Assembly: GCA_031181145.1 (NCBI GenBank)
Contig: JAPSLB010000008.1
Location: 1-64,000, forward strand
Direction: 5' to 3'
DNA length: 64,000 nucleotides
Origin: Microvirga sp.
GTDB taxonomy: Bacteria > Pseudomonadota > Alphaproteobacteria > Rhizobiales > Beijerinckiaceae
Shown here in pieces: positions 4,858-19,988 of this stretch. Under the pieces are notes generated by a model. It saw nothing but the letters and a program-made list of their open reading frames with translations, ran no database searches and was not told the DNA's origin. The number at the start of each line of letters is the position of its first letter. Positions within the stretch are counted from its first letter, which is position 1. The position numbers and the translations under genes were made by a program.

Positions 4858-6204
4858 CTATGACTCTCGGAAGGCTCTCGACATGCTGTCCTTTAGTGGT
4901 TGCATTAAATACTGCAGGAAGGTGCGCTCAGCTGTGGTAATATATACTTCTGCCGGCATGCCGGGTGTCGGGGCAAAATGCTTGATATCCTTGGCCTCGA
5001 CCTCGTCGAGCTCCACCCGCACCACGTAGACGTCGTTCCGGATGCCCGGAGTCATATCGTCGGGCAGGGCATCGGCGGAGACGTACACCACCTTGCCGTC
5101 GACCATTGGGGTGGTGCGCTGGCTCAGCGCCGAGAGGCGCACCATGGCCGCCTGCCCCATGCGCACGTCGTCGATGTCCTGCGGGCGCACCCGCGCTTCG
5201 ACTACGAGCGAGTCGCGCACTGGGACGATCTCCATGATGCTCTTGCCCGGCTCGATCACGCCGCCCGCTGTGTGGTAGCGCATCTTCACCACCACGCCCT
5301 TGACCGGGGCGGTAATGGTGCCCCGCTCGACGATCCGGGACGCTGAGCGCATGCGCTCGCGCACGTCGTTGAGCTCAGCTTGCACCTCCTGCAGCTGCTC
5401 GGAAGCCGCCTTCTTGGAGGCATTGCGCAGCCCGAGGAGCTGCTCGTGGATGCGAGCGATGCGCTCGCGGGCGTCGCCGATCTCGCCGATGAGGCGGCCA
5501 GTCTCGCCCTGCAGGCTGGCCTGAGCGCGCTGGAGGGCGAGCACCTCAGGCTTGCGCACCATGCCGCCCTTGAGCAGCGCCGACTTGGTCTCCAACTCCT
5601 CCTCAATGATCTTGAGCTGGCGTGCGACGGCGTCCAGCTGGGTGCGCCCGCCCTTGATGCGCTCCTCCAGAGCGTCAATGCCGGACCGCAGCGTAGCGGT
5701 CTCGCTTCGCAGGTTGTTGCGCCGGGCATCGAAGGCGTTGCGCTGCGCGGTAAGGATCTCGGACAGCTCGCGGTCGCCCTGCGCCGTCTTGAGAAGGTCT
5801 GCGGGGAAGGCGAACCTATCCTCGTCGCGGGCCTCGGCCTCCAGCCGCGCCTCCATCGCAGATAGCCGGGCCTGGCGCAGCACTAGCCGGCGCAGCTCCA
5901 CCTGCGGTGTCGTCTCGTCGAGGAGGATCAGGGGCTGCGCCTGATCAACGGTGTCGCCCTCGCGCACCAGGATCTCCTTGATCACCCCGCCCTCAAGGTG
6001 CTGCACCGTCTTGTTCTGGCCGGTGGTCACGAAGACGCCGTTGGCCACCACCGCGCCGGCGATGGGCGCGGTGCCGCTCCAAAAGCCGAACCCGCCCAGG
6101 GCGACCGCGATCACCGCAATTCCGTACAGGGTTGGCCCCTTGGTGCTGCGCGGTACGTCCGCGTACCATTCCTTGCCCGTCATCTCGCCCATGGCTGTCC
6201 CCAT
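4858..6204 (-). CDS. HlyD-family type I secretion membrane-fusion protein
   Basis: A 448-residue adaptor of a type I secretion system. It has a short cytoplasmic N-terminus, one membrane segment (about 26-45), the biotinyl-lipoyl-like half motif QNKTVQHLEGGVIKEILV and a long coiled-coil hairpin (about 105-290, rich in Leu/Glu/Arg). The second lipoyl half and beta-barrel follow (GTITAPVKGVVVKM, GGVIEPGKSIMEIVP). Length and order match PrtE/PrsE-type adaptors that link the inner-membrane ABC exporter to a TolC-like channel. The gene is 22 bp downstream of the ABC exporter gene on the same strand, so the two are co-transcribed. No TolC gene is present in the window. An alternative ATG at 6192 is possible. 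Confidence 0.93.
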   Translation of the reverse strand: MGTAMGEMTGKEWYADVPRSTKGPTLYGIAVIAVALGGFGFWSGTAPIAGAVVANGVFVTTGQNKTVQHLEGGVIKEILVREGDTVDQAQPLILLDETTPQVELRRLVLRQARLSAMEARLEAEARDEDRFAFPADLLKTAQGDRELSEILTAQRNAFDARRNNLRSETATLRSGIDALEERIKGGRTQLDAVARQLKIIEEELETKSALLKGGMVRKPEVLALQRAQASLQGETGRLIGEIGDARERIARIHEQLLGLRNASKKAASEQLQEVQAELNDVRERMRSASRIVERGTITAPVKGVVVKMRYHTAGGVIEPGKSIMEIVPVRDSLVVEARVRPQDIDDVRMGQAAMVRLSALSQRTTPMVDGKVVYVSADALPDDMTPGIRNDVYVVRVELDEVEAKDIKHFAPTPGMPAEVYITTAERTFLQYLMQPLKDSMSRAFRES

Positions 6205-6226: not shown

Positions 6227-8065
6227 CTAGCGGCGGCCCGCCAGGATCGGCAGTATCTCGTCGCGTGGCCCGAAAGCCTGTACTGAGCCGTCCTTCATGA
6301 TCATGATCTTGTCCACGCTCTTGAGCAGGGCCGGCCGCTGGGTGATCGCGACTACCGTAATCCGGCGCTCCTTGGCGCGCTGCAGCGCCAAGGCCAGAGC
6401 GACCTCCCCAGGGTTATCGAGGTTCGAGTTGGGTTCGTCGAGCACCACCAGGCGCGGGTTGCCGAAGAAGGCGCGGGCCAGCCCGATACGCTGCTTCTGG
6501 CCGCCGGAGAGCGGGCTCCCGTCCATCGCCACTACGGTCTCGTAGCCCTGCGCGAATTGGGAGATCATCTCGTGCACGTCGGCCATCTCGGCAGCCTCGA
6601 ACACCTGCTCGTCGGTGGCGTCGACCCGCATCCGGGCGATGTTGTCCTTGATCGTGCCGGGGAAGAGCTGCACGTCCTGGGGTAGGTAGCCCACGCTCTC
6701 GCCGAACTGGCGCGGGTCCCAGTTGCGCAGGTCCATGGCGTCGAGGCGCACCGCGCCGGCGGTGGGGGTGATCGAGCCCACCAGCATCTTGCCCAGGGTC
6801 GACTTGCCGGTGCCGGACGCGCCGACCACGGCGAGCGATTCGCCTGGCTCCAGGGAGAAGTTGATGCCGTTGAGGATCACCTTCTTGTTCGGCGGCGGCA
6901 CGTAAAGTACGCGCTCGACAGTCAGACGGCCCTCGGGCTGGGGCAGGCGTAGGCGCTCCAGGTTGAGCGGCGAGTTGCTCAAGAGGTTTCTAATCCGCCC
7001 GTAGGCGGCGCGGGCGCCGATGAAGTTGCGCCAGCCCTCAATGGTGCCCTCAACCGGGGCCAGAGCACGTCCCGCCACGATGGAGGAGGCGATGACCATG
7101 CCGCCGGTGAGCTCGTGGTTGAGTGAGAGCCAGGCGCCCCATCCCAGGATGCAAACCTGGGTGCCGAGACGCACAATCTTGGACAGCGCCGACATCATGA
7201 TGTTGCGATCCTGCGCCGTGACCTGCGCCTTGAGCGACTCCGCGGTCTCGCGCCCCCAGATCACAACGCTCTCGGGGATCATGCCCATGGCGTTGATCAC
7301 CTGCGCATTGCGGGCCATGGCGTCGGCCTGCAGGTTCGCGCGGGAGGAGTAGGCGCTGGCCGCCGAGAAGGGCGCATGCGTGATGCGTTGGTTGATGTAG
7401 GCCACCAGGAGCAGCAGGATGCCGGTGCTGGAGACGATGAGACCCAGGTCGGGGTGGATCATGAAGACCACGAGCAGGTAGACCGGGGCGACGGGCGCGT
7501 CGAGCATGGTCAGCAGGACCGGCCCCGTCAGGAAGCTGCGCACCTGCTGCAGGTCGGCCAGGGTCTGGAACTCCTTGCTCGACCCGGCCTGCGAGGCCTT
7601 GGCCGCCGCGGCCAGCACCGGGGCTCCCAGCTTGCTCTCGAACTCGACGGCCACCCGCATCAGGATGAAGCGGCGCATCATGTCCATGATGACGTGCGCC
7701 ACCACGGCGCCGACGACCACCAGGCTCAGCATCACCAGGGTGTCGACGCTGCGGCTGGTGAGCACCCGGTCCGAGAGCTGGAACAGGTAGATCGGCATCG
7801 CCAGGATCAGCAGGTTGACCACGAGTGAGAAGATGGCCACCGTGACCAGGTTGCGCCGGCAATGGGCTAGGCCCTTGGTCAGGGCTTGGCGGAAGTCGCC
7901 GTCGCCTGAGCGCCGCTGGAGCGGTGCCGCTCCAGCGGGGTTGGCTTTCCTGTCCGGGGTGGTGTGGTGAGGGAGGCGGGCCGGGCTTGCGGCGGAGGGG
8001 GCTCCGGCGCGGGCCTGCGGCGCCTCCGTCCGTGACCGCGCCAGGATGGCCGCGTCTGTGATCAT
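6227..8065 (-). CDS. Type I secretion ABC exporter (permease-ATPase fusion)
   Basis: A 612-residue half-transporter of the PrtD/PrsD type. A Pro/Ala-rich N-terminus is followed by the membrane domain (about 70-340). The ATPase domain has Walker A GASGTGKST (415-423), Q-loop Gln463, signature LSGGQ (519-523) and Walker B LVVLDE (539-544). The residue expected to be the switch histidine is Gln576 (AITQRP). The ATG at 8065 is preceded by AAGGAACGC. It lies 37 bp downstream of the GDY-repeat gene and 22 bp upstream of the HlyD gene. It should export unfolded proteins with C-terminal signals in one step to the outside; the repeat proteins beside it are the likely cargo (inference). Confidence 0.93.
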   Translation of the reverse strand: MITDAAILARSRTEAPQARAGAPSAASPARLPHHTTPDRKANPAGAAPLQRRSGDGDFRQALTKGLAHCRRNLVTVAIFSLVVNLLILAMPIYLFQLSDRVLTSRSVDTLVMLSLVVVGAVVAHVIMDMMRRFILMRVAVEFESKLGAPVLAAAAKASQAGSSKEFQTLADLQQVRSFLTGPVLLTMLDAPVAPVYLLVVFMIHPDLGLIVSSTGILLLLVAYINQRITHAPFSAASAYSSRANLQADAMARNAQVINAMGMIPESVVIWGRETAESLKAQVTAQDRNIMMSALSKIVRLGTQVCILGWGAWLSLNHELTGGMVIASSIVAGRALAPVEGTIEGWRNFIGARAAYGRIRNLLSNSPLNLERLRLPQPEGRLTVERVLYVPPPNKKVILNGINFSLEPGESLAVVGASGTGKSTLGKMLVGSITPTAGAVRLDAMDLRNWDPRQFGESVGYLPQDVQLFPGTIKDNIARMRVDATDEQVFEAAEMADVHEMISQFAQGYETVVAMDGSPLSGGQKQRIGLARAFFGNPRLVVLDEPNSNLDNPGEVALALALQRAKERRITVVAITQRPALLKSVDKIMIMKDGSVQAFGPRDEILPILAGRR

Positions 8066-8102: not shown

Positions 8103-9995
8103 CTATGTGAGCACGGCCCCCATCATGTCGTCGTGGCCGACGCGCCCGAGGACGCATTCCAGGCAATTGTCCGCCATCGGCTGGTCGAGGAGCCCGGTGA
8201 AGGCCACCGCCTCGGAGACCAGGGCCATCGTATCTGGGTTCACGACGGCGGCGGAGGCGTCGATGTACTCCGCCTGGATCATCACGGCGTCCGTGTAGTG
8301 CTCGCCGCCCAAGTACTGGTCGAAGATGCCGCCCATGTCGATGATCTTGGCGCTGTTGTGGGCGTCGTTGCCGCCGGTGTTCATCCACTGCGCCCCGCCG
8401 CCCTTGGCGAGGTGCTGCAGGCCCACGTCGGCGTCGACGATCACGTTGGTCTGGGAGATCACGTTGATGTCCCAGTAGTCGCCGCGCACCACCAGGACGT
8501 CGAGCCGCCCGGAGGCGGCTCCAGCGAAGTCGGCCCAGTCGTCGAGGCTGGGCGTGCCGCGTCCGTTGATGGTGGCGATCAGATCCTCTAGCGCGTCGGG
8601 CACGTCCTTGAACCCTCCGGTACCGTGGTTCTCGATGGAGGCGTCGTTGACCAGGTGGTTGCGCCCGCTGTGCTGCGCGCCGGCCGCTTCGCCGCCGCTG
8701 ACCGTCGTTCCCAGAATGTCGTCGTCGAGGATAACGTTGGTCTGGGTAATCATGTTGAAGTCGTGGTAGTCGCCCAGCACGATGATGACATCGTAGTTGG
8801 CGAGGTCCACGAAGCGGGCCTGGTTGGCCTGGGTGTTGCCGCCGACGTAGGTGCCGCTGAAGGCCTCTGACGTGGTCTGCACGGCCTCGTCGTTGTCGGA
8901 GATCCAATTGCGCTGCGTTAGCGACTTCACGTCGAAGAGGTCGCCGTCCGCAATGGTGACGTTTACGTCGAGCCCCTTGGAACCGATCCAGTCGCCCTTC
9001 TGGCCTGACACCTCCTTGGCCACCAGGGCGGCGATGTTCAGGGAGAGATTGTCGCCGGTGTCCGCCTGCCCTGCGCCCGCCGACATGGGGAGGACTTGGT
9101 CGCTGTCGCTGTAGACGTTGGCCTGCACGATGGCGTTGGTCTCGTAGTAGTCGCCGAGTACGATCAGGGTGCCCGTTGCCTCGGCGAGGTCGGCGATCAC
9201 GGCCGCGTTCATGGCCTTGTTGCCGCCCGTCTCCAGCACCTGGGTGCCCGGCTCGCCCTTCTCGGGGAGCTCGGGGCGCTCAGAAGCCACGGGGGGCTTG
9301 TCAGCGACGGACACGCCGTTGACATAGGTACCCTCCTCGACAGTTTCGCCGCCGCCCGCCTCCTTCAGAGCCGCGTCCCGCTCCTCGACCAGCTCCTGCC
9401 ACCGCAGTGGCGAGTGGCCCTGCGGCACGAGGTCTTCCGGGACGGCAGCCTTGGCCTGGCCGAGGAGGTCAGCGACCACCTCCGGTACGTCGGCGGTGTG
9501 CATCTCGCTCACGCCGGCGCCGGCGTTGGCAACCAAGGCGTCGTCGTCGTCGATCAGGTTAGTCTGCGCGACGGTGGCGAGCTTGTCGTTGCCGCCGTCC
9601 TCGAAGGCGACCTTGTAGGCGGGCACCTGAGCGCTGGGGTGGGGCATGGGGCCAGCGCCGCCGGCCGCCGGGGCGTGCTCAACCAGCGCAGGGTCGTCGA
9701 GCCGCACCCAGGCTTTCGGGGCCTCCACGTCAATGGCGGGAGCGGGCGGGGCTTCAGGCGAGGTTAGGTGCTTGGCGGGAGGCGTGGCTGGCAGGGTGAA
9801 CTTCAGGGGCTTGGACGCGAGCTCCGGCACGTCGGCCTTGGGCAGCGCGTCGGGAGACAAGTCCACTGCGTAGTCGGGACTGCGGACCGCGTGCTGGAAG
9901 GGGTCGTAGGTGGTGCGGGAGGCCGGGTCGGACTCGACGAGGCGCAGGTAGCCCGCGAAGTGCCGGATGATCTCGCTCGTCACGTCGTCAGACAT
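8103..9995 (-). CDS. T1SS-linked protein with GDYxxxNxIxQTN modules
   Basis: A 630-residue protein starting at ATG 9995, preceded by GAGGGGTGA. The first ~120 residues are Pro/Ala-rich. From about residue 130 on, a module recurs roughly five times: GGNxxxN, then a hydrophobic strand, then GDYxxxNxIxQTNVIxDxD. Clear copies are GDYYETNAIVQANV, GDYHDFNMITQTNV and GDYWDINVISQTNV; degenerate ones read LATVAQTNLIDDDD and VKSLTQRNWISDND. There is no Sec signal or membrane segment. It is the first gene of the operon with the ABC exporter and HlyD, and lies downstream of the DSYNQDND gene. Homologues are often labelled only type I secretion protein; whether it is a substrate, chaperone or surface anchor is unknown. 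Confidence 0.8.
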   Translation of the reverse strand: MSDDVTSEIIRHFAGYLRLVESDPASRTTYDPFQHAVRSPDYAVDLSPDALPKADVPELASKPLKFTLPATPPAKHLTSPEAPPAPAIDVEAPKAWVRLDDPALVEHAPAAGGAGPMPHPSAQVPAYKVAFEDGGNDKLATVAQTNLIDDDDALVANAGAGVSEMHTADVPEVVADLLGQAKAAVPEDLVPQGHSPLRWQELVEERDAALKEAGGGETVEEGTYVNGVSVADKPPVASERPELPEKGEPGTQVLETGGNKAMNAAVIADLAEATGTLIVLGDYYETNAIVQANVYSDSDQVLPMSAGAGQADTGDNLSLNIAALVAKEVSGQKGDWIGSKGLDVNVTIADGDLFDVKSLTQRNWISDNDEAVQTTSEAFSGTYVGGNTQANQARFVDLANYDVIIVLGDYHDFNMITQTNVILDDDILGTTVSGGEAAGAQHSGRNHLVNDASIENHGTGGFKDVPDALEDLIATINGRGTPSLDDWADFAGAASGRLDVLVVRGDYWDINVISQTNVIVDADVGLQHLAKGGGAQWMNTGGNDAHNSAKIIDMGGIFDQYLGGEHYTDAVMIQAEYIDASAAVVNPDTMALVSEAVAFTGLLDQPMADNCLECVLGRVGHDDMMGAVLT

Positions 9996-10042
9996 CACTC
10001 ACCCCTCAGGTCATCGGCAGACTGGCGGGGGCTTGCCCCGCC

Positions 10043-10077
10043 GGAAAAGAGGGAGCCCACGCGATGCACGGGCTCCC
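10043..10077 (-). terminator. Hairpin terminator after the DSYNQDND gene
   Basis: On the minus strand the stem GGGAGCCC/GGGCTCCC (10051-10058 with 10070-10077) is followed by TCTTTTCC, 17 bp after the stop of the acidic repeat gene. A second GC-rich hairpin (GGCGGGG/CCCCGCC) lies at about 10024-10042. Together they should stop or reduce read-through into the exporter operon. Confidence 0.65.
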
Positions 10078-10093
10078 GGGTCTTACGAGGATG

Positions 10094-11038
10094 TTACGAG
10101 ATGTCGCCGCCGTCCGTGGTCGTGCTGTCGCCGCCCACAACCGACATGTTGAGGTTGTTGTACTGGATGTTCGATCCCATCACGATATTCTGAGTGAAGG
10201 CCTCCAGCTGGGCCACGCCGTCCGCGGAGGCGCTGGCGGTGGCGCGGTCGCCAAAGTCGCCGTCAACCTTGGCATACCCGCCGTCGCCGTACTGCTCGGC
10301 GTCGAACGAAGCGTCGTTGCTGACGCTTGGGCGGTAGAGGTGGTCTTGGTCAGCCAGCTCGCTCACCTGCGACAGGTTGAACATGGCGTCGTTGCCTTGG
10401 CCGGCCAGCGTGCCAGCGCCAACGACGTTCATGACGTCGAAGTCAAGCCCGTCGAGCTGCAGCCAGTCGTTGTCCTGGTTGTAGCTGTCGGTGGTCTCCT
10501 TGAACGCGTCAGAGATCGCTACGTCGATCGTGGTCTCGATGTCCGTCGTGGTCGTGGTGCTGTTGAAGCTGTCCGAGATGTCGGTGTCCTTGTTGTAGGA
10601 GTCCTCGATCTCAGTCTTGGTAATGTGGTCGTTGTCTTGGTTGTAGGAGTCCCGCACGTCGTCGTCCGAGAGGGAGACGTCCACGTTCAGGGTGTCGTTG
10701 TCCTGGTCGTTATCCTGGTTGTAGGAATCCTTCACGTCGTCGTCGGAAAGGTTCACGGTCTTGGTGAAGCTGTCGTTGTCATTGATGGTCTTCGTGATCG
10801 TGTCGTTGTCCTGGTTGTAGGAGTCACGCACGTCGTTGTCCTCGACGGCGACGTCGACGCTGTCGTTGTCCTGGTTGTGGCTGTTCTCGACGTCATTGTC
10901 GTAGGAGGTATCGGACGAGGACGTGTTGTTGCTGTTCGTGGTATTGCCGACGTTCTCGATGTCGTCCACCGCGACGGCGAGGCCGAGGGCGGCGGCGGCG
11001 GAGCCAGAATTGACGTTGTTGCGCTCAGTGTAAGCCAT
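10094..11038 (-). CDS. Very acidic DSYNQDND-repeat protein, probable T1SS cargo
   Basis: A 314-residue protein. The first ~30 residues are plain (start MAYTERNNVNSGSAAAALGL), then an Asp/Asn/Ser/Thr-rich region carries the octapeptide DSYNQDND or a close variant at about residues 52, 72, 104, 130, 147 and 184. Between copies are DDDV and TKT runs. The C-terminal third (190-314) is less repetitive and ends in Asn/Asp/Gly-rich sequence (QNIVMGSNIQYNN, GGDSTTTDGGD), suiting an uncleaved secretion signal. There is no Sec signal. Predicted behaviour is disordered, strongly negative and possibly calcium binding, as for matrix or adhesin proteins (inference). It has its own promoter region (gap 11039-11753) and its own terminator, so it may be made in larger amounts than the exporter. 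Confidence 0.8.
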   Translation of the reverse strand: MAYTERNNVNSGSAAAALGLAVAVDDIENVGNTTNSNNTSSSDTSYDNDVENSHNQDNDSVDVAVEDNDVRDSYNQDNDTITKTINDNDSFTKTVNLSDDDVKDSYNQDNDQDNDTLNVDVSLSDDDVRDSYNQDNDHITKTEIEDSYNKDTDISDSFNSTTTTTDIETTIDVAISDAFKETTDSYNQDNDWLQLDGLDFDVMNVVGAGTLAGQGNDAMFNLSQVSELADQDHLYRPSVSNDASFDAEQYGDGGYAKVDGDFGDRATASASADGVAQLEAFTQNIVMGSNIQYNNLNMSVVGGDSTTTDGGDIS

Positions 11039-11753
11039 GGATGCGTTCTCTTCTTGAATGAAGGCACAGCTTATCCATCATCGCTGATCATCTACGTCTG
11101 CGATGCCCGGAAGAAGCTAGTGCTTATGATTGAAGTTTGGATTTCAGGTGCTAGTGGCCAGGGCTCGCTCATCGCAAGGATCCATTCAAGGCCATATCAT
11201 GCTGACTTGGGTTCTATTCTGTTTGCACCTCCCCTATTATGAGAGCGTCACACGCTCATCGCTGTTAAGCTCTGCGTCCGAAGCATGCGTCCCCCATCGG
11301 CGCACGCGATGGTACGCCGTCAAAGTTACTTGAACTTCAGGACATGCTCACATCTCAGAAATTGAGATGCCTACCTTGAACTCCGCACAACTCGGATGGT
11401 CGTCCTATGCGAAGCTCACAAACCTGACGACCTGCCATCAGATTCCTTGATCAACTGCCAGTTCGGCGAGAAGCCCATTTGTGACCTCATCTTTCGCCCC
11501 TGACAGCGGTATTATCCTAGGAATGGACGCAGCTAAGGGTCAATGTTCAACAGGAGATAGGCTGCATTTCAGAAGAGTTACTACCTGCGATGTTAGAAGA
11601 GTTATTACCTGTCGCAGATGGCTCCTGCGCGGCGAACGATTCATGCAGAGTTGAAATAAATAGTCGGGACAATGCGCCTGGTTAGCAAACAAGCAGAAAG
11701 ACACTTCTGCCAGTCTCTTCGAAACGATGTATTGCGGAAATCAGGACGGTATC
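11039..11753. other. Long intergenic region upstream of the DSYNQDND gene
   Basis: About 715 bp, lower in GC than the flanks, between the starts/ends of two minus-strand genes. It holds no convincing gene. It must carry the promoter of the acidic repeat gene. A 24-bp-period direct repeat lies at 11571-11611. Confidence 0.5.
11571..11611. repeat. Two 17-bp direct repeats, 24-bp spacing
   Basis: AGAAGAGTTACTACCTG (11571-11587) and AGAAGAGTTATTACCTG (11595-11611) match at 16 of 17 positions with starts 24 bp apart. The spacing of just over two helix turns would suit paired binding of one regulator on nearly the same face. No regulator is known. Confidence 0.6.
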
Positions 11754-12329
11754 TCAACTCCTTGGATGGCTCGTCTGAGGGGAAACAACAGATGCCTGCA
11801 GGCGTGGCAAGAAGTCCCAAAGCTCACGGTTGAGCCTTTTAAGATCGTTGATTGTCTTGACCATCTCATTCACCCGAGATTCATCCATGGCACGGATTTC
11901 GCCCAGCACGAGACGGCCCTTGCTCTCGCGAATTCTCATTGTATTCGTGTGTGTGATCTCCCCGCGATCACTCAACGTGTACATGCAATGATTAAATTCG
12001 TTACGTACGCGGGTGTAATCATTGAAGCGGTCGATCACACGCTCAAGTGTTTTTGCTGTCTCAGGATCCTTGATCTTTGCTTTTGCGAGTCGCTGGATGA
12101 GTTCAATCCGCGCTCGGGTCGTATTCAAAGTGGCAAAGACGATTGCAGCCGAAACCTCATCAGTTTCGAGGAGAATCATGAGAACGTAGATAAACATGCT
12201 CTCGTTGTTCGACCAACTGAAGACAAGATTTCCAATGAGAGCCAGGATCTTGGTTCGATGATCAGCAGTCTCGATTGCAGCGGATTCAATAGCTTCGAAA
12301 TCAGGCCTTATAGGTATTTGGGTCGACAT
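11754..12329 (-). CDS. HEPN-like protein with RNxxxH motif, function unknown
   Basis: A 191-residue, mostly helical, soluble protein. ATG 12329 is chosen because AGAGGAGG precedes it; an upstream in-frame ATG at 12371 has no such site. Residues 106-114 read TRVRNEFNH, giving R109-N-x3-H114, the RX4-6H pattern with a polar residue after Arg that marks active HEPN ribonuclease domains of toxins and defence proteins. Flanking segments are helical, as in that fold (ARIELIQRLAKAKIKD before, NEMVKTINDLKRLNRELWDFL after). No nucleotidyltransferase (MNT) partner is adjacent. The family placement rests on this motif and helix pattern only. Confidence 0.6.
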   Translation of the reverse strand: MSTQIPIRPDFEAIESAAIETADHRTKILALIGNLVFSWSNNESMFIYVLMILLETDEVSAAIVFATLNTTRARIELIQRLAKAKIKDPETAKTLERVIDRFNDYTRVRNEFNHCMYTLSDRGEITHTNTMRIRESKGRLVLGEIRAMDESRVNEMVKTINDLKRLNRELWDFLPRLQASVVSPQTSHPRS

Positions 12330-12803
12330 GCTGCCGCCTCCTCTGGGTTGATGAGCTGATGCAAGCTTCAAGATCTTTATAGGTCAATATCGAGAGGTCT
12401 CTGCCATTATTGATAGTTATTTGTTAAATCATTACATATGGTGTTCTGTCATAGTTCAAGTATGTTGACCTGCTAGGTCATAGTCTGGCTTAACTCTCTG
12501 ATATCCCTAACTCACCGCCATAGGGGAGCGGAATACGGTAGTTTGGAGTTTCTCAATATCCGATTTTGCTTCAACACTCCCCAAAGCGAAGCATCAGAGG
12601 TCATTGATCATAAGAGTGTCACTGCAGCGTTGATGATACTCTTGTATTCGTTGCTCTCTGCACAAAACACGGCTTCCGAGGTTCCGTAGCGCTGTACTTC
12701 CGCTTAGGGTCAGGCGATGAAGTTCGACGATGGTTCGCAATGTCCGGTGCTTCCCCTGTGAGCGGACATTTGGCTGCCACTCACGGATCGAAGGGTTCAA
12801 ACA
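12330..12803. other. Intergenic stretch, repeat-like segment only
   Basis: About 470 bp upstream of the HEPN-like gene. The first part is AT-richer and should hold that gene's promoter. The second part contains a copy of the dispersed repeat. No gene recognised. Confidence 0.5.
12708..12775. repeat. Degenerate dispersed intergenic repeat, copy B
   Basis: It has the same block order as at 4433: GGGTCAGGC, then AAGTTCG, then GGTTCGCAATGTCC, then GAGCGGACATTTGG. By-eye similarity only; boundaries approximate. Confidence 0.35.
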
Positions 12804-13178
12804 TCAACAGCCCAACTGGCCTAGAACAAGCGGGCAACGAGTGCTCTTCACTATGGCGAGGAGGCAGGTCGCTTCCGCGTCGCCACTTCTTGAAGCGCGG
12901 TGGAGTACTTGCTCGATGGTTTCGCCGGCACCGGGCGCATGCCTGTCACAGACGGCAAGCACATGCTCGTACAGAGCTCGATCCGCCGGCTCGATGCCCC
13001 ACACCAAGGCGAACGCCGCCCTGATCTCCTCTAAGGACACGTCGGGTACGTCCGCTGCCACAAACGGGTAGGCCAACTCGAACAACCCACCGGCGCCTAC
13101 TGTCCTCTGGTCTTCCGCAAGTGCCCCGATGGCCCGCTCGATCGCTTCCTGGATCAGCTGTTCACGCTCATGGGTCAT
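12804..13178 (-). CDS. Small acidic protein of unknown function next to an IS
   Basis: A 124-residue protein. ATG 13178 has GGAGGTG six bases upstream, which favours it over the GTG at 13193. The sequence begins MTHEREQLIQEAIERAIGAL and is helical and Glu-rich up to about residue 95; I recognise no family. It ends 3' of the IS transposase gene, in the same direction, with its ribosome site only about 15 bp from the proposed IS end. It may therefore be a resident gene driven by read-through from the element. The last ~25 residues look less protein-like, so the C-terminus may have been altered. Confidence 0.55.
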   Translation of the reverse strand: MTHEREQLIQEAIERAIGALAEDQRTVGAGGLFELAYPFVAADVPDVSLEEIRAAFALVWGIEPADRALYEHVLAVCDRHAPGAGETIEQVLHRASRSGDAEATCLLAIVKSTRCPLVLGQLGC

Positions 13179-13195
13179 GGGGGGCACCTCCACCG

Positions 13196-14984
13196 GCTGT
13201 AAACGTCAGAATACCCGAACTCCGGTCACCGGTATGCGGGATCTTTGCAATTGTTGGCCTCCGAGAATATCGCCGGCTGGCGCTCGAGCCCCCACACCCA
13301 CTCGCCCGCTCGCTCCGGGTGTGCCTGGAAGTGGGCATTGCGCTCGGCAAAGTAACGGTCGATTGCCGCTTTGGCCTCCTCCGCAGACGGGTAGTTGCTG
13401 TTGTGGATGACGGCACGAGCCATGCCGCTGAAGACGGCTTCAATGACATTCAGAAACGGAGCACAGGAGGGCAGCGGCACAACCTTAATCTGCGGTCCGC
13501 CCCTGACCTGAGCGTCGGCGTTGTGCTGCGCCAGCCAGCCCTTGAGCTGGTTCGACGCATGCCAGGAAGCCGCGTCCCAGGACAGGTAAAGCTGACGGCA
13601 GGCGGCATACTTCGTGACGAGGATCTCAATCAGTCGGATCATCTCGGCCGTGTTTTTCTTCTCGCTGTAGACATGAGTGACTTGGTTCGTCGACAGCTCC
13701 AGGGCCGCCGTCAGAATCAGCGTGCCGCGCGCCTTCTGCCGTGCAGGGACAGTCCGGACCGTACCGGGGGGCGTCAGCGCTCGGCCGCCATGCAGCCTCA
13801 CAATGAACGGCCCATACTCATCGATCGAGAAGAAGGCTTCGTCAGGTTGCAGCGACGCGAGGGTTGAGCGCAGGGTCCGAACCTTCTCAGAGTAGTCCGG
13901 GTCTGTCGATGTGAGCACCTTACGAGCTTTGAGCCAGCGCCAGCCCGCCTGTTGCGTGATCTTGCGGATCGTATCTCGACAGATAGGACTGCCTTTTTCT
14001 GCAAGAGCGTGCTGCAACGAACCCATAGTCCAGGCCGTCCGATTGATGCCGTAGTTGAGCGGCGGCTCATGGAGGATAGTGAAGATAAGACTCTTCAGTG
14101 ACTCGCTATCAACCTTCCTGCGGGGTGGGGCACGGGGTGCAAACAGGGCTGCTGCCCCGCCCCGTTCATAGGCCTGACAGTAGCCGCAGTACGTCTTCTT
14201 CTCGATGCCGAGAAAGGCGCAGATTGCCGTCGAAGGCCAGCCGCGTAAGCTGCCGAGGACCACCAGCGACCGATTGCGCGCGTGGCGGCCCCCGTCCTGA
14301 AGCCTGCCCAGCAGCACGTCGAGGTCCGGCACATCGCCCAGCTCGCGCCGCAGGTCGGCGGCTGGCATCCTGTGTTGCGAAAGCTGACGCAGCCACGTGA
14401 AGGCAGCCTGCCGCGTCACCTCCTTGTGCGTCTTGCGTGCTGCGGACGATGTCAGTCTTTGCCGTTCGTTGGCCCGGCACTGCTTGGCGACACGCATCAG
14501 AACGGCGACGGCGGATTGCTTGTCCAAGCCTCGGATCTCATCATAGGCGGCTTCCCACAGCATGCGATCGGTCGGCTTGAGCGACCTGATGTAGTTTCGG
14601 ACGGTGTCGTACCCTCCGCTGAAGCCCTGCTGGCGAATGTGCCTGTAGATCTCGCGGAAGGACAAGTCTGGATGTTCCGCGCTCGACGCCATCTGCCGGA
14701 TTGTCTGCAAGTATGGTCCTAGCTTGGGAAACACCCGCTCTCGCGGGCCATAGGGCACCGGCTGCCGCTCGCGCAACATCTTGCGAACCGTATTCATGCT
14801 GATGCCAGTCTCGCGCGCGACCTGTCTCTGGGTGGCTCCTTCGACCAGAACTCGGTATCGGATCCGCGCCCATTGCTCAGGGTCGCTGTACATGAGGTGA
14901 CCTCACGCGCGATGGTGCTCGCTCATGGCACATTTGTAACAGGATCCAAACGCGATGTGAAACTTGAACCGGCGGGGTTACAGC
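13196..14984 (-). mobile_element. IS630-type insertion sequence (tentative ends)
   Basis: The transposase gene 13226-14893 is flanked by short inverted matches, GCTGTAAAC at about 13196-13204 and GTTACAGC at 14977-14984. They would give an element of about 1.79 kb with the gene filling it. The matches are short and imperfect, and no clear TA target duplication is visible, so the ends are provisional. Confidence 0.45.
13226..14893 (-). CDS. IS630-type DDE transposase with IS21-like N-terminal HTH
   Basis: A 555-residue transposase, intact. The first ~45 residues form a helix-turn-helix like IS21 IstA (GATQRQVARETGISMNTVRKML). A middle winged-helix segment is IS630-like (GWPSTAICAFLGIEKKTY). 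The C-terminal half is the IS630/Tc1-type DDE domain, with acidic residues in FFSIDEYG, LYLSWDAASWH and NVIEAVFSG. It cuts and joins DNA at element ends in the cytoplasm. The start MYSDPEQWARIRYRVL is typical of this group. The upstream side (14985 on) abuts a wrecked oxidoreductase gene. Confidence 0.9.
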   Translation of the reverse strand: MYSDPEQWARIRYRVLVEGATQRQVARETGISMNTVRKMLRERQPVPYGPRERVFPKLGPYLQTIRQMASSAEHPDLSFREIYRHIRQQGFSGGYDTVRNYIRSLKPTDRMLWEAAYDEIRGLDKQSAVAVLMRVAKQCRANERQRLTSSAARKTHKEVTRQAAFTWLRQLSQHRMPAADLRRELGDVPDLDVLLGRLQDGGRHARNRSLVVLGSLRGWPSTAICAFLGIEKKTYCGYCQAYERGGAAALFAPRAPPRRKVDSESLKSLIFTILHEPPLNYGINRTAWTMGSLQHALAEKGSPICRDTIRKITQQAGWRWLKARKVLTSTDPDYSEKVRTLRSTLASLQPDEAFFSIDEYGPFIVRLHGGRALTPPGTVRTVPARQKARGTLILTAALELSTNQVTHVYSEKKNTAEMIRLIEILVTKYAACRQLYLSWDAASWHASNQLKGWLAQHNADAQVRGGPQIKVVPLPSCAPFLNVIEAVFSGMARAVIHNSNYPSAEEAKAAIDRYFAERNAHFQAHPERAGEWVWGLERQPAIFSEANNCKDPAYR

Positions 14985-17998: not shown

Positions 17999-19195
17999 TT
18001 ATTGGACGCGCGTGGGCTCGCCGACAAACGCCGCCCAAGAATTCATGAGGTGGCGGCGTTTCTCGAAGAAGTCGCTCCGGCGATACGCCGCCTCGACCCG
18101 GTTCTCAAGCACGTGGGCTAAGGCCGCCTCGGCTACCTCGCGGGGAACGTCGGTGCAATCCGCCGCCCAATCTCGGAAAGAGCTTCGAAAGCCATGCACC
18201 GTCGCATCGATCTTGAGCCGCCGTAGGAGCATTTCCAGGGCCATGTTCGATAGCGGACGGTGGGGCTTTTGGCCCGGAAACACAAAATCGTCCGTGCGCA
18301 GTGCAGCCATCGTTGCAACGATTTCCCGAGCTCGGGCCGCGAGGGGCACGCGGTGCTCGCGCCCGGCCTTCATCCGACGCCCAGGAACCACCCAGATGCC
18401 GCGTTCACGGTCAAACTCACTCCATTGGGCGCCAATGGCCTCGCCGCTGCGGGCCGCGGTCAGGATGGTAAACTCAAGGCAAAGCGCACTGATGGATCCG
18501 AGATCCCGCAATCGAGCGACCAGATCGGGCACCTCGCCATAGGGCAGCGCTTTGTGATGCCTTTTTATATGCCTTGGACGGCTCGGCAAAAGGTGGTCCA
18601 GATGGCCCCGCCATCGCGCGGGATTTTCCCCTGAGCGGTGCCCCTTCGCCTTGGCGGCATCCAGGACCTTCTCGATCCGGCCCCGTAGGCGATTGGCCGT
18701 TTCGGGCACTCTCAGCCACAGCGGCTTGAGAACGCCGAAAACTTGCTCTGTCGTGACGGCATCAACCGGCAGGTCTCGGATCGATGCGCAGTATCGGGTC
18801 AGCGTCATGCGCCATTGATCGCGATGCTTGGGGTTACGCCAGGCCGCCTCCAGCGCAGCAATGACCCCATCAGCCACCTCGCCGAATGTTGGCACCTTGG
18901 GCTGCGCCTTTCTTTCATCGAGGGGGTTTCGGCCCTCTTTGACAATGCCCCTCGCTTGAGCGGCGAGTTCGCGGGCCTGCGCCAGGCTCACGGTGGTTGC
19001 GCTGCCCAGGCCCATCTCGCGCAGCCTGCCCACACCCGTTTCGCCGGGGGCTTTCCAGCGGAACAGATAAATCCAGCGTCGCCTGGACCCATCGGGCGAG
19101 ATGGAAAGGTAGAGTCCTCCCCCGTCGCTATGCCGCCCAGGTTGTTTGAGCGTTGCAACGGTGCGAGCCGAGAGCTTGTTGAGCATTCGTGCCAT
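17999..19195 (-). CDS. Tyrosine-type site-specific integrase
   Basis: The P4-like integrase has an N-terminal DUF4102 arm-binding domain (LNKLSART, DGGGLYLSISPDGSRRW-like) and a core-binding domain. The catalytic domain has the expected residues: Arg in LTAARSGEA, His-x-x-Arg in HGFRSS, His in AALAHVLE and the nucleophile Tyr in EAAYRRS. From ATG 19195 it is about 398 residues; an open frame extends to 19297 but that part is unlike the family, and ATG 19186 is another choice. No strong ribosome site decides it. It should catalyse integration and excision of the element that continues downstream with alpA and rep. Confidence 0.9.
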   Translation of the reverse strand: MARMLNKLSARTVATLKQPGRHSDGGGLYLSISPDGSRRRWIYLFRWKAPGETGVGRLREMGLGSATTVSLAQARELAAQARGIVKEGRNPLDERKAQPKVPTFGEVADGVIAALEAAWRNPKHRDQWRMTLTRYCASIRDLPVDAVTTEQVFGVLKPLWLRVPETANRLRGRIEKVLDAAKAKGHRSGENPARWRGHLDHLLPSRPRHIKRHHKALPYGEVPDLVARLRDLGSISALCLEFTILTAARSGEAIGAQWSEFDRERGIWVVPGRRMKAGREHRVPLAARAREIVATMAALRTDDFVFPGQKPHRPLSNMALEMLLRRLKIDATVHGFRSSFRDWAADCTDVPREVAEAALAHVLENRVEAAYRRSDFFEKRRHLMNSWAAFVGEPTRVQ

Positions 19196-19988
19196 GGCGC
19201 AGCATCCCATGGGCCCCAACTTCGGCCCCAACATGGAGCATGGATTGCAATGGACAACCATGGCCTCTTCTGGACAAAGCCATGATCTAAACCCCATAAA
19301 AATAAGGATATTTCGGATGATGCGAGACCGACGAGAACGACAGTATAGCGGACACCCCCTCCGCCATCCGTGGCACTAACCGTTTGGCACTGTTCGCAAA
19401 TTTGTTGAGCTTGCGATCACGACGCCCCACGTCCTGGCCCACATCCATAATCACCTAGGTTGCGGCTTGGAGCTATGCCGCACCGTTTGAGTTGCAGCAG
19501 AAGCGGACATGAATCATCCCATCATGGCCCGTCACGTCGGGGATCAAGTGCGGGTAGTGTGGTGGGATTTCTGCGGATCGTCTGAGCGAGGCGACACTGA
19601 TCGCACATAAAATAAACTTCACATCCCGCAATCGGATCCGCCGCCGGATCGAGCGCTTCCCATCGCCACCGGAGACCCGGCCGTCCGCCGGCCTCCAGGG
19701 TGCCCTGAGCCGGAGGACATGGCATTCACGGACGGGGGTCCGGGCGAGGCATTCACGATTCTTGCCGGGGCCTCCTGAGGAGGAATGACCGAAATGTCGA
19801 AACGCCCGGTTCGACTACGGAGATGCCCGGCACGGCACTGCACATCTCAAGGCCACGGGCAGAGACCGACCTTCTGAATGTCAGTGCAGATTGCTCCGGC
19901 GCAAATGCCCGGGAACCTTAGCCGTCGTTCAGGGTCATCCTTGTACTGCTCTTCTTCAGGAACCGGAGCAGCAAACAGAGACTGGCCG
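19196..19988. other. Intergenic region outside the integrase gene
   Basis: Nearly 800 bp without a recognisable gene. A minus-strand frame at 19522-19725 (ending in CDQCRLAQTIRRNP) might be a relic of a zinc-binding protein but has no ribosome site. One attachment site of the element is expected near 19200-19400; no repeat with the other side was found by eye. Confidence 0.45.

Follow-up and report, generated by a model that had tools for sequence, protein, structure and literature searches.

What is an acidic protein with recurring copies of the octapeptide DSYNQDND doing beside a type I exporter, and which part of that protein is kept in its relatives? We investigated this question in a 64,000-nucleotide stretch of Microvirga sp. 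DNA (the window), where a first-pass annotation had placed the protein just upstream of an exporter operon. The adjacency holds, with the correction that the gene (A) is itself the first gene of the operon; directly downstream of it and on the same strand lies a gene for a second large protein (B), followed by the genes for a PrtD-type ABC transporter and an HlyD-family adaptor, and a companion gene (C) is located upstream of A. The main features, in coordinate order, are as follows.

4858..6204, minus strand: HlyD-family type I secretion adaptor (TIGR01843, 401 bits, cut-off 209)
6227..8065, minus strand: PrtD-type type I secretion ABC permease/ATPase (TIGR01842, 725 bits, cut-off 510)
8103..9998, minus strand: B, a modular protein of 631 aa; five Q-x-N-x3-D-x-D motifs; C-terminus with a conserved D-hydrophobic pattern
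10051..10077, minus strand: 12-bp stem-loop in the A-B gap, with TCTTTT behind it, a terminator/attenuator candidate
10094..11038, minus strand: A, a 314-aa acidic protein with a variable low-complexity N-terminal part and a conserved C-terminal domain
10094..10468, minus strand: conserved C-terminal domain of A, residues 191-314, from two A alignments
11754..12371, minus strand: C, a 205-aa protein with an invariant R-N-x3-H, possibly HEPN-like

The genome carries a TolC-type gene outside the operon (TIGR01844 at G000:C7, 373 bits, above cut-off, and the sole such match). It also encodes a second PrtD-type exporter above cut-off, with no A, B or C match within the surrounding 18 kb (L080); because this exporter is present, A could leave the cell by another route. 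Upstream, beyond C, we observed a transposase-like ORF with a DDE_3 match (13226-14893, minus strand) and an ORF that we take to be integrase-like (17999-19297, minus strand), so the module may lie in or beside a mobile region.

The copies of the repeat within A are listed below.

10862..10885, minus strand: NSHNQDND, residues 52-59
10802..10825, minus strand: DSYNQDND, residues 72-79
10706..10729, minus strand: DSYNQDND, residues 104-111
10628..10651, minus strand: DSYNQDND, residues 130-137
10580..10603, minus strand: DSYNKDTD, residues 146-153
10466..10489, minus strand: DSYNQDND, residues 184-191

Four copies are exact (starts 72, 104, 130 and 184) and two carry two mismatches each, with start-to-start spacings of 20, 32, 26, 16 and 38. 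Across 5000 composition-preserving shuffles of A, the maximum number of exact copies was 0 (4 observed), and the six copies counted at up to two and up to three mismatches compare with shuffle maxima of 2 and 4, respectively; the initial observation of six exact or near copies at irregular spacing is thus confirmed, far above shuffled sequence. Synonymous codons differ among the copies (TCC/AGC, GAC/GAT, CAG/CAA), and dN/dS of A against its closest relative (L030) is 0.29 (C-terminal domain 0.35, N-terminal part 0.24), which together argue that A is a selected protein sequence. The protein is also as acidic as first described, with 67 D+E among 314 residues, 12 basic residues and a pI of 4.05. 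It had been reported to lack a Sec signal: no such signal is conserved, since a hydrophobic N-terminal stretch equal to that of the window protein occurs in 7 of 35 A proteins, every one from the same genus, but A of the window does have this short stretch (residues 14-24).

The operon position of A is constant across the examined loci, and only the C-terminal domain of the protein is kept in relatives. Its consensus in the alignments runs FSxxQVSExxDND, then EAFNQNIVMGANIQYN and VVGGD. The preceding tract changes from lineage to lineage: QDND recurs in A of L030, L022, L039 and L040 (L022 is the same locus as G313/L038, with the same scores, and was counted once), other members of the genus use DNS, and more distant A proteins carry QDQ/QGQ, NGN, GGDGG or ADAD tracts. 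The pattern [DN]S[YFNHL]N is present in 3-12 copies (0.2-2.6 expected) in 14 of 35 A rows, and in 0-2 copies in the remaining rows. Read from these alignments, DSYNQDND is a local flavor of a fast-changing low-complexity region and not the defining unit of A, and the notion of a protein family built on the octapeptide is not supported. Two A genes stand in tandem before B in L043 (5147-7167), L044, L045 and L081 (9012-11006), which is a natural duplication of the putative acidic cargo.

A calcium-responsive function had been suggested for A, and an RTX-like calcium-responsive exoprotein would suit acidic repeats beside a PrtD-class exporter, a class that serves RTX proteases according to PMC3034196. 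This suggestion received no direct support: among the 11 A and 11 B proteins scanned, no RTX, calcium-binding or other Pfam model scored at or above cut-off, and the repeat is not conserved. We therefore regard an RTX-like identity for the DSYNQDND protein as highly improbable.

Genetic linkage among A, B and the exporter was evaluated by profile searches. Among 297 genomes of the order, the C-terminal profile of A matched 22, all 22 of which also carry B, with PrtD and HlyD genes after B in their loci (the module is split over two contigs in two genomes). The B profile matched 34 of the 297 genomes, with 24 strong matches (at least 283 bits) that include all 22 A genomes; in the strong-B genomes without an A profile match (G077 and G117), a 651-aa A-like ORF occupies the position of A. 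The ten weak B genomes consist of three cousins (L060-L062) and seven genomes of one genus (f44 g74; E 2.5e-5 to 7.9e-4), whose matches were taken as chance because, of the two loci fetched (L063 and L064), the one ORF read (L063) is presumably a glutamyl-tRNA synthetase. A B match in G016 (E 7.4e-4) was also dismissed as chance, with no match in L065. Within 61 related genomes, A was found in 9; these 9 also carried B, which gave one additional match, taken as chance. In a sample of 385 genomes from the class, only G000 and G517 had A, and the same two had B; C was found in these two, with two weaker matches besides. Of 48 genomes of the genus, 9 carried B, and exactly these 9 had C at 270 bits or more; one further genome gave a weak, partial C match.

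A separate search of 72,556 plasmids returned 32 records with B and 33 with C, 32 being common to both; neither A nor the B cousin of L060 gave a match when used as query against the plasmids. The extra C plasmid, from Sinorhizobium fredii CCBAU 25509, carries both A and C (L084 6725-9477); B, PrtD and HlyD were all without a match across the 18.5 kb stretch read. The association of A with an exporter thus held in 22/22 A genomes, where B, PrtD and HlyD accompany it, but not on this plasmid, where A has no exporter nearby.

Comparison of 47 distinct loci showed A, B, PrtD and HlyD in 47/47 and C in 46/47 (C reaches only partly into the stretch in L050 and L056); the 47/47 for A and B is partly by construction, as the loci were fetched for carrying A or B and some are in the profiles, and the linkage tests free of that selection are the 297-genome, 48-genome and plasmid searches. 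In L077, A was found only by reading frames stop to stop (41 bits), not from start codons. A LuxR-type gene was detected in 26 of the 47 stretches, several of the matches being weak, and also in 2 of 10 control stretches (L027 and L061), so only the strong LuxR matches are meaningful.

Carriage extends over Hyphomicrobiales and Rhodobacterales, at least two orders of alpha-proteobacteria, in a patchy manner. Plasmid carriers belong to Ensifer, Sinorhizobium, Shinella, Neorhizobium, Paracoccus, Rhodobacter, Cereibacter, Sulfitobacter and Qingshengfaniella, and carriers include a Sinorhizobium meliloti nodule isolate and a marine Sulfitobacter. The module is patchy (9/48 genomes of its own genus) but coherent. 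Polysaccharide genes lie beside it in 4 of 10 annotated plasmid stretches (two Sulfitobacter, two Shinella), and no polysaccharide neighbors are annotated in the other six (Rhodobacter, Cereibacter, Rhizobium, Qingshengfaniella, Sinorhizobium meliloti and Paracoccus ferrooxidans); three further plasmid stretches carry no annotation and stand outside the 10.

We then considered what B contributes to the module. Its motifs and C-terminal tail, together with the single corresponding motif of A, are located as follows.

10343..10369, minus strand: QVSELADQD (residues 224-232), the only occurrence of Q-x-[NSA]-x3-D-x-D in A
9540..9566, minus strand: B motif 1, QTNLIDDDD
9099..9125, minus strand: B motif 2, QANVYSDSD
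8889..8915, minus strand: B motif 3, QRNWISDND
8718..8744, minus strand: B motif 4, QTNVILDDD
8427..8453, minus strand: B motif 5, QTNVIVDAD
8106..8129, minus strand: DMMGAVLT, the C-terminal tail of B, a candidate for the end of a secretion signal (pattern in 32/34 B rows)

The repeats of B contain two motifs, Q-x-N-x3-D-x-D, with two to six strict copies, and G-x-N-x3-N; GxN...NxA motifs also recur along the protein. B of the window had no Pfam or NCBIfam match, and 0/11 B proteins matched any Pfam family at E 0.01. An acidic-then-hydrophobic tail is the pattern of an uncleaved C-terminal type I secretion signal, and the tail of B conforms to D-x-hydrophobic-x-x-hydrophobic-hydrophobic-small in 32 of 34 B rows (all but L042 and L053), vs. 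0 of 35 A rows; the pattern is absent in all three cousins (L060, L061 and L062). The motif and tail counts cover 34 B rows (plus the three cousins) and 35 A rows, with L044, L045, L067, L073-L079 and L081-L083 left aside. As to the original proposal that A is exported by the neighboring system, the genetic linkage is strong, but export itself we infer, and A has no B-type tail.

In L051 (6480-8472) B, and in L074 (8038-12983) B and PrtD, are split over several reading frames, reflecting either decay or sequencing errors. A, B and C bear hypothetical or doubtful names in the annotated records examined, such as 'fibrinogen-binding protein' for A (L075 7875-8846) and 'type I secretion protein ATPase' for B (L071 5086-7194).

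A and B have a motif in common. The pattern Q-x-[NSA]-x3-D-x-D, picked after inspecting the alignments, has 131 occurrences in 37 B rows, cousins L060-L062 included (36/37 rows positive; shuffles predict 2.3), and 32 in 35 A rows (29/35 rows positive; shuffles predict 4.8); the six A rows in which it is absent are both L043 copies, L055, L056, L070 and the truncated L057. Without the three cousins, 127 motifs remain in 34 B rows at two to six per row, compared with usually one in A, and the Q...D.D spacing in the domain of A equals that in the B repeats. Alignment of the A and B profiles by hhalign matched GANIQYN...VVGGD to GxNxQxN...VxGxY at an E of 0.00088, a probability of only 23% and a score of 31.7, vs. 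17.4 for the best of 60 column shuffles and 23.3 for the reversed control. The profile alignment is suggestive of A-B homology, not proof of it.

With a probability of roughly 0.6, we propose that A and B are a non-RTX cargo pair of a dedicated type I exporter, with A docking on B in a surface or matrix assembly. A, B, the PrtD-type ABC transporter, HlyD and C constitute one module, in which B, ending acidic and then hydrophobic, most likely bears the export signal. A has its one Q-x-[NSA]-x3-D-x-D motif in the C-terminal domain, behind a long, probably disordered, fast-changing tract; exported A would most likely dock on B via the common building block, and its tract would coat a B scaffold bound to the surface or to a matrix. 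That the two proteins act at the surface or in a matrix is our best guess, with modest support. The AlphaFold models (both from three-sequence alignments) were unusable for judging the fold or A-B docking, at a mean pLDDT of 40 for the A domain and 32 for B; Foldseek with the B model returned nothing below E 0.5, and neither A nor B matched a PDB chain at E below 0.5.

The one-sided tail could instead mean that B is exported and that A is a co-regulated intracellular or periplasmic acidic protein of another role. The lack of a B-type tail in A would then be expected, the N-terminal hydrophobic stretch in A of genus members (7/35) would be accommodated, and so would the plasmid bearing A and C without B or exporter nearby. 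This arrangement leaves the B-type motif in the C-terminal domain of A unaccounted for and is at odds with the other loci examined, where A precedes B and the exporter genes; we judge it quite unlikely.

The intergenic region between A and B bears on how the two proteins may be produced. A had been credited with a terminator of its own. On its own, the stem-loop of the window is not significant, because the terminator scan found 1 such site and shuffles of the region average 1.5. Across loci, however, a stem of at least 9 bp follows A in 33/34 cases (75 nt after the stop folded; mean z -3.8; exception L043), vs. 0/33 after B and 0/33 after PrtD, controls that often fall in coding sequence; the folding covered 34 of the 47 loci, the same ones being left out as in the motif counts. 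A T run is found behind the stem in some loci only. The stem-loop may act as a terminator, an attenuator or an mRNA-stabilizing hairpin, and its position after A would fit production of A in excess of B and the exporter.

The same hairpin leaves B grouped with the exporter genes behind it, so that B may be co-expressed with the exporter and not with A. This would suit a scheme in which only A is exported and B is a cytoplasmic or export-associated chaperone or escort bringing A to the ABC transporter, as would the steady length of B (628-714 aa in unbroken rows) next to the variable length of A (264-669 aa) and the joint occurrence of A and B in the 47 loci examined. B is nevertheless the richer of the two in the common motif, has a conserved acidic-hydrophobic C-terminus and, with a length of at least 628 aa, would be big for a chaperone; we consider the escort scheme unlikely.

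C diverges from the operon in 37 of 44 readable loci and lies on the same strand in the window. Residues R123, N124 and H128 are invariant in 27/27 aligned C proteins. HEPN RNases have an R-x4-6-H motif, and R-N-x3-H has HEPN spacing. The PADLOC Csx1 model gave weak matches in 12/27 C proteins (best E 8.5e-5) and Pfam HEPN_Cthe2314 matched 1/27 (E 0.011, below cut-off), the commonest weak Pfam match being WD40_alt (9/27, best E 0.00061, below cut-off). No Pfam model reached cut-off in the 27 C proteins scanned, and a PDB search with C returned two chance-level matches, neither of them HEPN. A HEPN-like identity for C is a lead from these patterns: C resembles HEPN-domain RNases in the invariant R-N-x3-H, and is unlike them in belonging to an exporter module and not to a defense system. 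That C processes the mRNA of the operon is a guess.

A more elaborate possibility is that A and B form a secreted heteropolymer, in which B would be the repeat-built scaffold and A the decorating subunit, joined by Q-x-[NSA]-x3-D-x-D. The stem-loop, perhaps cut or protected with the help of a HEPN-like C, would set the A:B ratio, and the tract of A would provide lineage-specific surface chemistry. We hold this to be a decidedly unlikely elaboration. In the cargo-pair reading that we prefer, expression would be tuned by C, which may be HEPN-like, and by the LuxR-type regulator that some of the loci carry.

We compared the module with known systems. PrtD/PrtE-type operons (TIGR01842/TIGR01843) are alike in having ABC and adaptor families above cut-off and a TolC-type gene elsewhere in the genome. 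RTX protease loci place the cargo gene first and the exporter genes after it, as given in PMC3034196, and in the window the cargo-like A likewise comes first with exporter genes behind. The window module differs in the absence of an RTX or protease match in A or B, and in the presence of two cargo-like genes, an intervening stem-loop and C. HasA is a non-RTX protein exported by a PrtD-like exporter. Its type I secretion is mentioned in the same paper (PMC3034196). The likeness lies in non-RTX cargo; A and B differ in that they have no Pfam match at cut-off and no PDB chain at the E threshold above. Curli CsgA and Fap FapC are repeat proteins with Q/N-rich motifs in secreted matrix. B recalls these functional amyloids in its repeated GxN...NxA motifs, and the export machine differs. 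No curlin or Fap model matched at cut-off (11 B vs. Pfam; 27 B vs. NCBIfam); the sole NCBIfam Fap match among the 27 B proteins was to the chaperone FapA (E 0.0018, 18.6 bits vs. a cut-off of 110), and a FapC fold match of B (E 1.2) came from an unreliable model.

Several candidates for further members were rejected. Six of the 8 loci from a genome-contig scan (L023 and L025-L029, from Cytophagales, Chlorobium, Caenispirillum, Sphingomonas and two Pseudonocardia) are acidic-repeat composition matches only: none of the profiles for A, B and C matched them, and neither PrtD nor HlyD scored above 150 bits (weaker ABC matches were seen in L025 and L026). In the cousin loci L060, L061 and L062, PrtD and HlyD are preceded by a weakly B-like protein, and neither the A nor the C profile matches; these loci stand outside the 47. 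In L060, a 268-aa acidic protein (8598-9404, minus strand) with four Q-x-[NSA]-x3-D-x-D motifs lies beside the B-like cousin, PrtD and HlyD, and could represent a simpler form of this cargo; in L062, a 1569-aa G/N/S-rich repeat protein (9334-14043, minus strand) with 0 common motifs precedes the B-like cousin and PrtD/HlyD. An annotated 1517-aa CDS of Rhodobacter sp. CZR27 resembled an A-B fusion, but the A domain is in another frame, and the CDS was not counted as evidence of fusion. Type I genes near polysaccharide genes on a Phaeobacter biofilm plasmid, described in PMC4062626, were set aside as instances of this module, with no Phaeobacter plasmid among the 32 B records.

No description of A, B or C was found in the literature searched, which comprised open-licence papers only. 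PrtD-type secretion is known; the module adds to it two families of cargo-like proteins and a companion gene, and none of the three reached a family cut-off in any library searched. Describing them as a module gives A, B and C a testable role in surface or matrix biology. Furthermore, a constant C-terminal domain joined to a tract rewritten by lineage (DNS, QDND, NGN, GGDGG, ADAD) would offer a natural experiment on the features that a disordered extracellular tract needs to function.
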